Shown piece after piece: positions 1,204 through 6,648 of a stretch of DNA of 12,199 nucleotides (the first letter of the stretch is position 1; the number at the start of each line of letters is the position of its first letter). This stretch comes from a bacterium (GTDB lineage: Bacteria > JAMCPX01). The translations under genes were made by a program, and so were the position numbers. The stretch covers positions 1-12,199 of the forward strand of contig JAJYLN010000034.1 in NCBI GenBank assembly GCA_021787665.1, read 5' to 3'. The notes under the pieces are model-generated. The model saw nothing but the letters and a program-made list of their open reading frames with translations. It did not search any database and was not told where the DNA came from.

Positions 1204-1653
1204 TTACTCGACGTCCACGCTAATCTGCTTCGGCTTTGCGGACTCGGTCTTCGGTATCGTGACCTCGAGCACCCCGTCCTTGAACTTTGCTTTCACCTTG
1301 TCCTTGTCTACCGCAGTCGGAAGGGTGAAAGATCTGGTGAAAGAGCCATATGCCCTCTCCATTCTGTAATAGTTATCTTCCTTCGTCTCTTTCTCGCACT
1401 TCCTCTCGCCTTTGAGCGTCAGGAGGTTATCCTTTACCTCTATGGAAAAGTCTTTCTTTTCGAGGCCCGGCAGCTCGGCCTTGAGCACGACGCTGTCCTT
1501 GGTCTCAAAAATATCGACCGCCGGACTCCAGGAGCCTGCCGAAAGCTCTATGTCAGGGAACCTGACCTTCCCAATGTTCTCATCGAACACCCTGTTAATC
1601 CGTTCCTGGATGGTCGTAAGCTCCTTGAACGGATCCCACTTTGCCATTGCCAT
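1204..1653 (-). CDS. hsp20: Small heat-shock protein (Hsp20/alpha-crystallin family)
   Basis: A 149-residue ATP-independent holdase that binds unfolding cytoplasmic proteins, normally passing them to DnaK. It has the usual layout: an N-terminal arm with WDPFKEL at 6-12, an alpha-crystallin domain at about 42-135 opening with PAVDIFE and containing the conserved AELPG (59-63) and the DGVLEVTIPK strand (126-135), then a short tail with alternating hydrophobics (QISVDV, 143-148) that would act as the I-x-I/V oligomerisation motif. The start at 1651-1653 follows AGGAGG (1665-1670 complement) by 11 bases; a second ATG two codons in is farther from that site. The gene begins 17 bases after the dnaK stop, with its ribosome binding site directly after that stop, so the two are almost certainly cotranscribed. 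Length and domain match the family. Confidence 0.95.
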   Translation of the reverse strand: MAMAKWDPFKELTTIQERINRVFDENIGKVRFPDIELSAGSWSPAVDIFETKDSVVLKAELPGLEKKDFSIEVKDNLLTLKGERKCEKETKEDNYYRMERAYGSFTRSFTLPTAVDKDKVKAKFKDGVLEVTIPKTESAKPKQISVDVE

Positions 1654-1670
1654 ACGCCTTCACACCTCCT

Positions 1671-3581
1671 TTATTTTTTTTCCTCGAATTCCGCATCTAT
1701 CACATCCTCTTTCTTCTCGCCCTCGCTCGCCTCGCCGCCGTTACTTTGCGTACGGGCATCCGCGCCGCCCTTACCGCCCGTCGACGCTTTCTTGTACATC
1801 TCTTCCGCAAGATGGTGTGACGCTTTGGTGAGCTGTTCTATGGACGCTTTCATCTTTTCTATATCCCTTTCCTCGAGCACCGCCTTCGCCTTTTCCAGGC
1901 TGTCTTCCAGGCTCCTGACTTCGTCCGCGGCCAGCTTCTCCTTATTGTCGTTCACGAGCTTCCGGATGCCATAGATGAGATTGTCGAGATTGTTGGCAAC
2001 TTCGATCTTCTCTTTGTTCTTCTTGTCATCGTCAGCGTGTCTTTCAGCCTCCTTGACCATCTTATCGACCTCGTCCTTTGCAAGCCCACTCGACGCCGTA
2101 ATGACGATCTTCTGCTCCTTCGCTGTCGCAAGGTCTTTCGCAGAGACATTCAGTATTCCATTGGCGTCTATATCGAAGGTGACCTCTATCTGGGGTATGC
2201 CTCTCGGTGCCGGTGGCAGGCCGACGAGCTGGAATCTACCGAGGGTCCTATTGTCGGAGGACATCTCCCTCTCACCCTGCAAGATGTGTATCTCGACACT
2301 CGTCTGGTTATCCGCAGCGGTCGTGAAGATCTCGCTCTTCCGGGTCGGTATGGTGGTGTTCCGGTTGATGAGCTTGGTCATGACACCGCCGAGCGTCTCG
2401 ATACCGAGGGAGAGCGGTGTGACATCGAGCAGGAGCACGTCCTTGACCTCTCCCGATAGCACGGCGCCCTGGATCGCAGCCCCTACAGCCACGACTTCGT
2501 CCGGATTGACCCCTTTGTGCGGCTCCTTGCCGAAGAATTCCCGGACCATCTCCTGTATCTTGGGCATCCTTGTCTGTCCGCCGACGAGCACGACCTCGTC
2601 GATTCCCGAGGGCTTCAGACCGGCATCCTTCAATGCCTGCTTCATCGGCTCAAAACTCAGCTCCAGCAGGTCCATGCAGATCTGCTCCAGCTTCGCCCTG
2701 CTCAGCTTCAGGACCAGGTGCTTCGGACCCGATGCGTCCGCAGTGATAAACGGAAGGTTGATTTCGGACTCCATCGTGGACGACAGCTCAATCTTGGCCT
2801 TCTCGGCCGCCTCCTTGAGGCGCTGGATGGCCATGATATCCTTGCTGAGATCGATGCCCTGATCTTTCCTAAACTCGCCGATGATCCACTCTATGATGCG
2901 CTGGTCGATATTGTCGCCGCCGAGATGGGTGTTTCCGTTGGTGGACTTCACCTCGACGATGCTCTCCCCTACTTCGAGAATCGAGATATCGAACGTGCCT
3001 CCGCCGAAGTCGTAGACCGCTATGACCTCTTCCTTCTTCTTGTCGAGCCCGTACGCGAGCGCTGCCGCGGTCGGCTCATTGATTATCCTCTTCACGTCGA
3101 GCCCTGCTATCTTCCCCGCGTCCTTGGTCGCCTGGCGCTGACTATCGTTGAAATATGCCGGGACGGTAATAACCGCTTCGGTAACTTTTTCGCCCAGATA
3201 CGCCTCTGCAGCCTTCTTAAGCTTCTGAAGTATCATGGCCGAGATCTCCGGAGGTGAATACAGCTTTCCTTTTATATTGACCCTCACGTCCTGATTGTCA
3301 GCGGACACGACCTTGTAGGGCACCATCTTCATTTCCTGCGTTACTTCGCCGTACCGTCTTCCCATGAACCTCTTTATAGAATATACCGTATTCTCTGCGT
3401 TCGTTACTGCCTGACGCTTTGCCACCTGACCTACCAGAATCTCTCCCTCTTTGGTAAACCCCACAACAGACGGCGTTAGCCTGCTACCTTCCTCGTTGGG
3501 AATGACGATGGGCTCCCCCCTCTCAACAAAGGCGACGACGGAGTTAGTAGTACCCAGATCTATGCCTATTACTTTTCCCAT
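1671..3581 (-). CDS. dnaK: Molecular chaperone DnaK (Hsp70)
   Basis: A full-length 636-residue Hsp70 that binds and releases hydrophobic peptide stretches in an ATP-driven cycle in the cytoplasm. The three Hsp70 signatures are present: IDLGTTNS (7-14), [14 protein letters not shown] (189-202) and [14 protein letters not shown] (330-343). The interdomain linker [15 protein letters not shown] (382-396) leads into the substrate-binding domain. The alpha-helical lid covers about 500-600, and the protein ends in a flexible Gly/Glu-rich tail with the conserved DVIDAEFEE. The start is supported by AGGAG about eight bases upstream. It is followed by hsp20 but not by grpE or dnaJ; those partners may lie elsewhere. 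No CIRCE repeat is seen upstream. The last codons form a run of eight A's, but a -1 slip there meets a TGA before hsp20, so no fusion is made. Confidence 0.98.
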
Positions 3582-3724: not shown

Positions 3725-3769
3725 TTGCAGAAACGCTGCAGATGGCGTATACGTAAATCTGGCTATAAT
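3725..3769 (+). promoter_or_regulatory. Candidate promoter of the HEAT/HD-GYP operon
   Basis: TTGCAG (3725-3730) and TATACG (3748-3753) are spaced by 17 bases and would start transcription only about 8 bases before the ATG at 3768. A perfect TATAAT (3764-3769) overlaps the start codon itself, but no matching -35 was found for it. No Shine-Dalgarno sequence precedes the ATG, which fits a very short or leaderless transcript. Confidence 0.3.
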
Positions 3770-5297
3770 GAATACAAAAAACACGACACCGGAAACGACC
3801 ATATTATCGGAGATGGAGAAGCTCATACGATTGTTCTCCTTTTATCCGGAGGGGCACTCCTACCTCGCCGTGGCATCGACCCGTATCTTCAACACCATTC
3901 AGCAGCAGCTCGGGGGCGTCAATACCGCCATATACTCGGTCGATAGAAGAAACATATCCATAGGCAGCGTTGTGCTCGATGGGTTCGGCAAGCTCTCAAA
4001 ACTGCTGTTTTACAAAAGGATAAAGGCCCTCATTATCCATAACACCGTCAAGCTCCAGGAATTGATCACATTCGTACAGCTGGTATCGAGAGGAGACCTC
4101 ATACTCCCCAGAGACAAGAGCATGAAGCAGCTTTTACTCGGCGGCAATATCTCGGGTATAGAGGTGGAAGAAGTCGACTATGATACGATCCGCGAAGAGC
4201 TTGAGGAGGAGTCAGATCAGCAGGTGGAGACGCCCGAAGATACCGTTGAGCTCGAAAACGTCGTACAGGACCTTTCGGACGACGAGCAGGAGGCGATCAG
4301 GTTTATAAATCTTATCGATAAGGAGGCCAATCCTTTGCGGTATGCCGAACTATCCGATGCGCTCATCGTGATCATACAGAGACTCGTGGACATAGAGAAA
4401 TACGAGATACCCCTCATTGCAATAAGGACCTATACGCAGCACGCCTACCAGAACAAAAGGGGCCAGACGATCGTGGCGATGGCAGGAAAACAGGTCGGAC
4501 TCATTGCGCTGGAGAAGGGTATGCTCCAGCAGGTCACCGCGCCGATAGCAATGGGTAATCCCTATTATTACGACTCATCCATCGCTATCGCAACGATAGT
4601 CGGGGAGCCTGCTATGCAGGAGCTCTCGGAAATCATGATAAAGACAGAGACCATGCAATCGCTGAAGTTCATTGCAAGGGCGCTCTCGGTCTTCGGGAAA
4701 GATGCGTCCCATCACTTGGAAAAGATCATGCTCTCCGGCAATTACAGAGCTGCATCCGTGGCCATCGACACGGCGGCAGGCATGAAACCCGCTCCGGAGC
4801 ACACCGTGGCCCACGGCCTGAAGAGCAGCGATGTCAGGATAAAGAAACGGTCGCTGCAGGCGTTGTTCGATCTGAACACAACTACGGGCAACAGTATAAT
4901 CGACAAGCTCATTGCCGGGGCCCCGGAACAGAGGATGATAAGCCTGACCATAAGCATGATAGGCAAATATAAGAGAACAGCATTCGTGCCCCGGCTCCAG
5001 CACTTATTGTCCGATGAGGCCATCCCCTATTCCATCAAGCATGATGCTCTGCTCGTGCTGGGTGAGATCGGAGGAAGGGATGCAGTCAATGTTATCATTA
5101 CTTCCATCTTCGGTTCCGCGGCGCTCCTGCCAAAGCAATACCCCGAAATAAAGCTCGCGGGGATAAAGGCCCTCGCCCTCACGATGAACGAGGTCGCCCT
5201 TGCCAACCTTGTAAAATTGTTGGAGAACAAGGACGCGCACATACGGGGAACAGCATGGAGCACGCTCTACGAGGTCGGGAAAAGAATAAATGTCTGA
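3768..5297 (+). CDS. HEAT-repeat protein with N-terminal domain shared with the adjacent HD-GYP protein
   Basis: A 509-residue protein predicted to be cytoplasmic (no signal peptide or membrane segment). Residues about 14-140 resemble the N-terminal domain of the next gene product: both have an SFYP/SLYP-x-x-H motif near residue 24, then a beta-rich stretch and a closing GIEVEEV/GVEIRKI motif. An acidic linker follows (about 132-175). The C-terminal half is helical with HEAT-like repeats, clearest at about 406-449 and 460-504 (LLVLGEIGGRDAV; LANLVKLLENKDAHIRGTAWSTL). Such scaffolds bind partner proteins, and the likely partner is the HD-GYP protein whose start overlaps this stop by 8 bases. 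The ATG at 3768 lacks a ribosome binding site, but no other ATG or GTG start lies upstream in frame, and the length before the shared motif matches the sibling. The biochemical role is unknown. Confidence 0.8.
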   Translation: MNTKNTTPETTILSEMEKLIRLFSFYPEGHSYLAVASTRIFNTIQQQLGGVNTAIYSVDRRNISIGSVVLDGFGKLSKLLFYKRIKALIIHNTVKLQELITFVQLVSRGDLILPRDKSMKQLLLGGNISGIEVEEVDYDTIREELEEESDQQVETPEDTVELENVVQDLSDDEQEAIRFINLIDKEANPLRYAELSDALIVIIQRLVDIEKYEIPLIAIRTYTQHAYQNKRGQTIVAMAGKQVGLIALEKGMLQQVTAPIAMGNPYYYDSSIAIATIVGEPAMQELSEIMIKTETMQSLKFIARALSVFGKDASHHLEKIMLSGNYRAASVAIDTAAGMKPAPEHTVAHGLKSSDVRIKKRSLQALFDLNTTTGNSIIDKLIAGAPEQRMISLTISMIGKYKRTAFVPRLQHLLSDEAIPYSIKHDALLVLGEIGGRDAVNVIITSIFGSAALLPKQYPEIKLAGIKALALTMNEVALANLVKLLENKDAHIRGTAWSTLYEVGKRINV

Positions 5298-6648
5298 CAA
5301 CAGTCAATTCGGCACGCTGGTGACCCTGATGACAGGAATCGTAAAAAACCTGTCACTCTATCCAAAGACGCACCCCACAATAAAAACAGCGGTCCGCGGT
5401 ATCAACGAGACCCTTCATAAACTGCTTGAAACGCGCAGGGAGCTGGTTATCGCTATCGTAAAGAACACACTCCTCGTCGACAGAACCCCCCTCTATACGA
5501 CGACGAAAGGAGTTGAGGAGTTCATAGACAGGCTCATCAGTCTCGAAGTCAACGGGATCGTCTTCTTCAGGACGATAAACGAGAAAGAGATACTCATCCT
5601 GCTGGAGAGCCTGACGGTACCTATGGAAGAGCTGAAGAAGCAGAAAGGGCTGCCGGAAAGGCTCAAGAACATGGGGGTCAGGGGCGTGGAGATAAGGAAG
5701 ATAGAGGATGACGTCAAGATCGAGATCTTTAAAACCTACACGGCGGCAAGAGACGAGGTCGTCAATATGATGGGCGAGTTGAGGCTCGGTCATCTCCCCG
5801 AGAAAACAAAGATACAAGAGATGATCAGCGATTTAAACGAAGCCATGCTGAAGGATAAGAATACGCTCCTCTGCCTTACCATGCTCCAGGATTATGACGA
5901 GTATACGTTCAACCATTCTGTGAACGTCGGGATCCTTTCCCTATCGCTCGCCCAGGAGCTCGGCTTGCAAGGTGACGACCTGCTGTTCGTAGGACTATCC
6001 GGTATTCTGCATGACATTGGAAAGACAAGAATTAATCGAGGGATCATACTTAAACCATCAGCATTGAGTGATTATGAGTGGGACGAGATGAAGAAACACC
6101 CTGTTTACGGCAGGGATATTATCAAGGAAATAGGCGGCATAAGCGATGCGACTGCCCATTTTGTTCTCTATCACCATCTCAGATACAACCTTTCCGGCTA
6201 CCCGCGGCCTGACGGCATCATGTCCCAGCCGCATGGCTCGAAGATCATTGCGATAGCCGATACCTATGACTCGATGACGACCCTGAGGCCGTACCAGAGG
6301 AGGTTCGATCCAAAAGAGTCCATGGAGTTGCTGAGCAGCCGGGCACATGAAGATTTCGATGCGGACTACGTCAAGGCTTTCATCAAGAATCTCGGTATAT
6401 ATCCCATCGGCTCGGTGGTAAGGCTCGATACCAACGAGGTAGGCGTGGTCACCAAAACAAACGACACTGTACCCCAGAGGCCCTATCTGAAGCTCATCCT
6501 CGACGCAGCAGGCAACACGATGGAGCAGGCAGAGGAGATATCGCTCGAAGAGAAGGACGCCACGACCCATCGTTACCGGAAGACCATCGTAGCCACGGTG
6601 GGCAGCGCCCAGCAGGGCCTCATAGACCTCAATAAGTACCTCAAGTAA
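5290..6648 (+). CDS. HD-GYP domain protein, probable cyclic-di-GMP phosphodiesterase with variant motif
   Basis: A 452-residue protein with two parts. Residues about 9-148 form the domain shared with the preceding HEAT protein, here with SLYPKTHP at 22-29. Residues about 180-370 form an HD-GYP domain, a subclass of HD hydrolase that degrades cyclic di-GMP using two or three metals. Visible ligands are H209 (NHSVNVG), H241-D242 (HDIGK), H270, H295-H296 and D324 (ADTYDSM), with GYP at 303-305. The motif reads HHLRYNLSGYP where the family normally has HHE followed by a D/N-G pair, so the Glu is replaced by Leu; catalytic metals are retained. A C-terminal extension (about 371-425, YPIGSVVRLDTNEVGVV) is usual for the family. 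No membrane segment is seen, so input must come through the N-terminal domain or the HEAT partner. The 8-base overlap with the upstream gene implies translational coupling. Confidence 0.92.
   Translation: MSDNSQFGTLVTLMTGIVKNLSLYPKTHPTIKTAVRGINETLHKLLETRRELVIAIVKNTLLVDRTPLYTTTKGVEEFIDRLISLEVNGIVFFRTINEKEILILLESLTVPMEELKKQKGLPERLKNMGVRGVEIRKIEDDVKIEIFKTYTAARDEVVNMMGELRLGHLPEKTKIQEMISDLNEAMLKDKNTLLCLTMLQDYDEYTFNHSVNVGILSLSLAQELGLQGDDLLFVGLSGILHDIGKTRINRGIILKPSALSDYEWDEMKKHPVYGRDIIKEIGGISDATAHFVLYHHLRYNLSGYPRPDGIMSQPHGSKIIAIADTYDSMTTLRPYQRRFDPKESMELLSSRAHEDFDADYVKAFIKNLGIYPIGSVVRLDTNEVGVVTKTNDTVPQRPYLKLILDAAGNTMEQAEEISLEEKDATTHRYRKTIVATVGSAQQGLIDLNKYLK

Follow-up and report, generated by a model that had tools for sequence, protein, structure and literature searches.

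An overlapping HEAT-repeat/HD-GYP gene pair with a homologous N-terminal domain suggests a widespread, putative two-gene c-di-GMP module

The two adjacent genes described here, A and B, encode a HEAT-repeat protein and an HD-GYP protein, and the first approximately 140 residues of both are a homologous domain, named ND in the following. Neither HD-GYP enzymes nor HEAT proteins are new as protein types; the combination of an ND-HEAT with an ND-HD-GYP protein suggests a two-gene signalling module that is widespread and apparently undescribed. No paper on an HD-GYP/HEAT-repeat gene pair or on ND was found in the open-licence literature; a description elsewhere is possible. We lean towards a reading in which A and B form a soluble two-protein unit, with the HD-GYP phosphodiesterase B joined via the NDs to the HEAT partner A, which would regulate or localize it. 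The broader proposal, held with about even confidence, is that ND might be an unrecognised hetero-association domain defining a widespread two-gene c-di-GMP module, which would have arisen by one ancient duplication, been retained as an overlapping pair across many phyla and would use its HEAT subunit to target or gate the phosphodiesterase.

Both open reading frames and their 8-base overlap, as described in the sequence-only reading, were recovered in the window (the whole stretch of 12,199 nucleotides analysed), where they share bases 5290–5297 (Table 1). The assignment of the HEAT domain to one protein and of HD-GYP to the other was likewise confirmed: Pfam recognised HEAT_2 at residues 453–504 of A and HD_5/HD at residues 197–358 of B, with HEAT_2 as the only family in A and HD-type families as the only ones in B. 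Orthologues of A have the same length (509 amino acids) in six genomes of the same family, and wherever the region is intact within the family, which is the case in six genomes, the −8 overlap is kept. In another one (G006), B is present and cut by the contig start, while neither A nor B was found in G007, which is about 80% complete and the sole such genome of the family. Since no strongly hydrophobic segment was found in A or B of the window, both proteins are probably cytoplasmic.

Table 1. Features of the gene pair, numbered from the first base of the window
Feature	Position	Strand	Basis
Gene A, ND-HEAT protein, 509 aa	3768..5297	+	ORF call, HEAT_2
ND copy of gene A, about residues 5-145	3768..4202	+	hmmsearch 5-145; profile match to ND of B
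Linker of A, acidic, low-confidence, about residues 146-169, between ND and helical repeats	4203..4274	+	AF2 pLDDT < 50 at residues 149-167
HEAT-type helical repeat scaffold of A, residues ~170-509	4275..5294	+	Pfam HEAT_2; AF2 helices 171-507; alphaRep structural matches
8-base overlap, stop of A/start of B	5290..5297	+	shared bases; overlap identical in six genomes of the family
Gene B, ND-HD-GYP protein, 452 aa	5290..6648	+	ORF call, Pfam HD families
ND copy of gene B, residues 3-142	5296..5715	+	ND profile search
HD-GYP catalytic domain of B, residues ~196-371	5875..6402	+	Pfam HD_5; PmGH 4mcw alignment; residue conservation among 48 B-type proteins
C-terminal beta-rich extension of B, residues ~373-452	6406..6645	+	AF2 strands 376-436

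The similarity of the two N-termini, noticed at first by eye, proved to be true homology, with a strong profile-profile match and a nearly identical order of predicted secondary structure elements. A direct BLASTP comparison gave one collinear alignment of 148 residues (16% identity, E=0.003 for a single comparison), which includes both the SFYPEGHSYL/SLYPKTHPTI and the GIEVEEV/GVEIRKI blocks on which the original observation was based. Searched against other genomes, the B sequence matched A-type proteins of two of them (E=5e-6 and 6e-6). With relatives collected from 60 related and distant genomes, profiles of 12 A-type and 18 B-type sequences (residues ~8–142) matched over 130 columns (P=99.45, E=5.1e-22; wrong-domain controls 0.3–2.1%), and enlarged profiles of 45 A-type and 44 B-type NDs gave P=99.86 and E=5.7e-31 (1.3% at most in 50 column-shuffled controls). 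In the AlphaFold models of A and B (mean pLDDT 86.5 and 87.1, respectively), both NDs consist of two helices, a beta hairpin, a helix, a strand, two helices and a strand, with the YPxxHP turn between the first two helices; in A, DSSP divides one of the strands into two. Chance or convergence around this helix turn, for which the pairwise identity of just 16% might be taken to speak, is hardly conceivable in view of a collinear match of about 130 residues, at E=5e-22 and 6e-31 while the controls stayed at nil, and of nearly one predicted secondary structure order in both domains.

ND was not assigned to any catalogued family. The N-termini of A and B gave no credible match in Pfam or NCBIfam, and 116 ND segments yielded there only isolated matches of single members at chance level (E ≥ 0.0025). 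Searches with ND profiles for sequence relatives in the PDB returned nothing convincing, just low-significance matches over short stretches. Because the fold searches mostly matched the HD-GYP and HEAT parts, it is not claimed that the fold of ND is new. Within the genome harbouring the window, single-sequence queries and a profile search revealed no further ND copies; the profile matched just A and B.

Among 386 sampled genomes, ND was found in 107 (ND profile, E ≤ 1e-5). Genomic regions were fetched around the better matches, apparent tandems first and then single matches by rank, so that the sample of loci is non-random. The fetched regions contain 55 ND-HD-GYP ORFs, and for 50 of these an ND-HEAT ORF is located directly upstream on the same strand, which bears out the expectation that the two genes co-occur as neighbours across genomes. 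The upstream partners contain ND without HD and nearly always a HEAT signal. Overlaps of 4 bases (14 pairs) are the most frequent arrangement, followed by those of 8 bases (9 pairs); a few large overlaps arise because the first possible start codon was chosen. Of the five unpaired B genes, L145 and L150 are each located at the end of a contig, and each of these genomes has an A-type or ND fragment at the end of a different contig; L163 is close to a contig start, L146 follows a broken A frame and L167 follows masked sequence. Phylum-restricted searches around the window and around G051, G251, G065 and G014 returned disjoint sets of genomes, and hence the gene pair is present in at least five phyla. 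No plasmid record covering 80% of B was found by tblastn. About 17 full ORFs in the fetched regions encode ND-HEAT proteins without an ND-HD-GYP neighbour, which indicates that an adjacent B is not always required for A. Several genomes harbour two copies of the pair, namely G065 (G065:C1:4433636-4435857 and 1658349-1660616), G014 (L067 and L068) and that of L137, in which the copies are apparently in tandem. A second architecture is encoded at six loci (L141, L142, L143, L153, L157 and L158): these ORFs of 880–930 amino acids are long HEAT proteins with ~240 extra N-terminal residues, carry ND at about residues 230–385 and have no ND-HD-GYP neighbour.

The genes surrounding the pair are less uniform. 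Hsp20 and DnaK genes are located divergently upstream of it in the window (1204–3581, − strand). A third operon member was considered and rejected, as the adjacent genes vary by lineage and the DnaK/Hsp20 neighbours recur just in the window's own family; a Pfam search of 61 neighbours revealed no family that recurs, except for additional HEAT genes in places. One of the latter (L118:7003-8214) follows closely after the pair on the same strand, and the related locus L117 has a gene comparable in size and position (L117:7307-8509). In one genome, a T2SSE ATPase with an MshEN domain is encoded just upstream of the pair (L132:994-2847). MshEN is a known c-di-GMP receptor domain, and this neighbour is a possible hint at a link to pili or secretion.

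The phylogeny of the NDs speaks for the proposed duplication: the A-type separated from the B-type in one split before the lineages diverged. A quick tree of 89 NDs required three changes of the A/B label, and the misplaced rows had long branches; the likelihood improved when the A-type rows were constrained to group (p-AU 0.936). Five long-branch pairs, chosen after this first tree had been seen, were left out of a more careful tree, in which 40 A-type and 39 B-type NDs are split at one branch (support 98/98). This split was recovered in 98% of the bootstrap trees of the reduced set and one label change sufficed. With the five pairs left out, the one-branch split thus points to one ancient duplication before the spread of the module, which would be the simplest reading. 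In the two genomes with two pairs each, G014 and G301, each A groups with the A and each B with the B of the corresponding pair (89-ND tree); since the duplication, the pair has mostly been passed on as a unit.

Protein A is a HEAT-repeat protein, with tandem antiparallel helix pairs that are recognised by the HEAT profile (HEAT_2, 37.6 bits against a cut-off of 27.7). Its model is a helical solenoid, and the best structural matches are the HEAT-like alphaRep proteins (Z about 15). A differs from HEAT-repeat proteins and alphaRep designs in the ND placed in front of the repeats and in the conserved HD-GYP partner gene.

The HD-GYP fold of B is reproduced in the model (AF2 pLDDT 87), which matches PmGH of Persephonella marina (PDB 4mcw/4mdz/4me4) over 185 residues (4mcw, Z 19.5, rmsd 3.5), as well as 9rbz (Z 20.4) and 3tmb (Z 25.1). 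The roles of the active-site residues were taken from PMC4159591. Seven of the eight metal ligands of this HD-GYP phosphodiesterase have equivalents in B (H209, H241, D242, H270, H295, H296 and D324), as do Asp183, Lys225, Asp308 and Arg314 (D203, K245, D327 and R333), and the GYP motif is present as G303-Y304-P305. B differs from PmGH in its own N-terminal domain and partner gene and in two residues of the active site. Tyr205 replaces the third-metal ligand Glu185, so that the carboxylate of the three-metal E/D-T-G subgroup is lacking; a tyrosine occupies this position in 40 of 48 B-type relatives. An HD-GYP subgroup with Y/F at the position of the third-metal Glu has been described (PMC4159591), and with B in this subgroup a two-metal site is the natural prediction. 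Gln336 takes the place of Lys317, which contacts guanine in PmGH, and the nucleotide specificity of B is therefore uncertain. The genome contains seven GGDEF loci, so c-di-GMP is probably made there. Taken by its sequence, B is a putative metal-dependent phosphodiesterase of the HD-GYP class with c-di-GMP as the presumed substrate.

All eight catalytic positions checked are intact in 41 of the 48 B-type proteins and at least one is altered in the other seven, so that catalysis cannot fully account for the function of B in every case; the tyrosine of GYP is kept in 45 and replaced by phenylalanine in three. Four of the altered proteins (L063:5533-7101, L123:2171-3853, L147:2981-4372 and L130:5863-7227) have all lost the equivalent of Lys245; in addition, the histidine of HD is changed to tyrosine in L123 and L147, and the equivalent of Asp324 is lost in L063. 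These four may be inactive HD-GYP partners.

The best whole-protein match among solved structures, and the one reaching furthest into the ND of B, is Bd1817 of Bdellovibrio bacteriovorus (PDB 3tm8/3tmb/3tmc/3tmd; Z 22–25, 224–254 residues), which like B consists of an N-terminal domain followed by an HD-GYP domain, the latter with a two-iron site in Bd1817. The matched range extends to residue 1 for 3tmc, and about 30–70 more residues are aligned than with the HD-GYP structures 4mcw, 4r8z and 9rbz (185–195 residues). This is a hint from the models that the N-terminal domain of Bd1817 might be a relative of ND; sequence does not confirm it, as the ND profiles gave no match to Bd1817. In contrast to B, in which GYP is present, Bd1817 is without the tyrosine of this motif and inactive (PMC4159591).

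Pairwise distance matrices of the domains were compared across 40 A/B pairs for signs of joint evolution. The distances of ND_A and ND_B are correlated with r=0.69 (partial 0.39 given the HD and HEAT parts), with the reservation that the distances are saturated and the taxa non-independent, compared to r=0.47 (partial 0.03) for ND_B and its own HD domain. A bootstrap of the difference between these two correlations excludes 0, and the difference persists after thinning of near-copies. The correlations fit an ND-ND interface and are weak evidence for it; together with the common operon order, they can also stem from co-inheritance alone. A and B might also be co-expressed and work separately, with each ND homodimerizing or sensing a ligand and the pair being kept since both proteins answer one signal. 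Paralogous domains often homodimerize, and ND-HEAT proteins exist without an adjacent ND-HD-GYP gene, but the fixed order of the pair persists across at least five phyla and ND_A correlates better with ND_B than the latter does with its own catalytic domain; we regard separate action as unlikely. Less likely still is a true complex with its contacts outside the NDs: the HEAT arch of A would wrap around the HD-GYP domain of B and inhibit or chaperone it, while the NDs bind a third partner. HEAT arches commonly serve as protein-binding scaffolds, and the distances of HEAT_A and HD_B are correlated as well (r 0.61, partial 0.33), a value below the partial 0.39 of the NDs by a gap that is small for 40 pairs and weakly disfavours this arrangement.

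Co-inheritance, the tight gene overlap and the co-evolution of the domains lend indirect support to a two-part complex formed via the NDs, as the sequence-only reading had suggested. In this preferred scheme, A would be the dedicated partner of B, a HEAT scaffold equipped with a paralogous copy of the ND of B. The two NDs, derived from one ancient duplication, would most likely bind each other and keep A and B together, and binding of a client by the HEAT arch of A would place or gate the breakdown of c-di-GMP by B.

Discussions of HD-GYP enzymes usually centre on sensor domains that these proteins carry themselves. In the present pair, a separate HEAT protein, tied to the HD-GYP enzyme by a duplicated domain, appears to act as the regulator. 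ND, absent from Pfam and NCBIfam and found in over one quarter of the genomes sampled, is a domain family deserving a name, and for many c-di-GMP phosphodiesterases that are otherwise unassigned, the pair offers a specific partner that can be tested.
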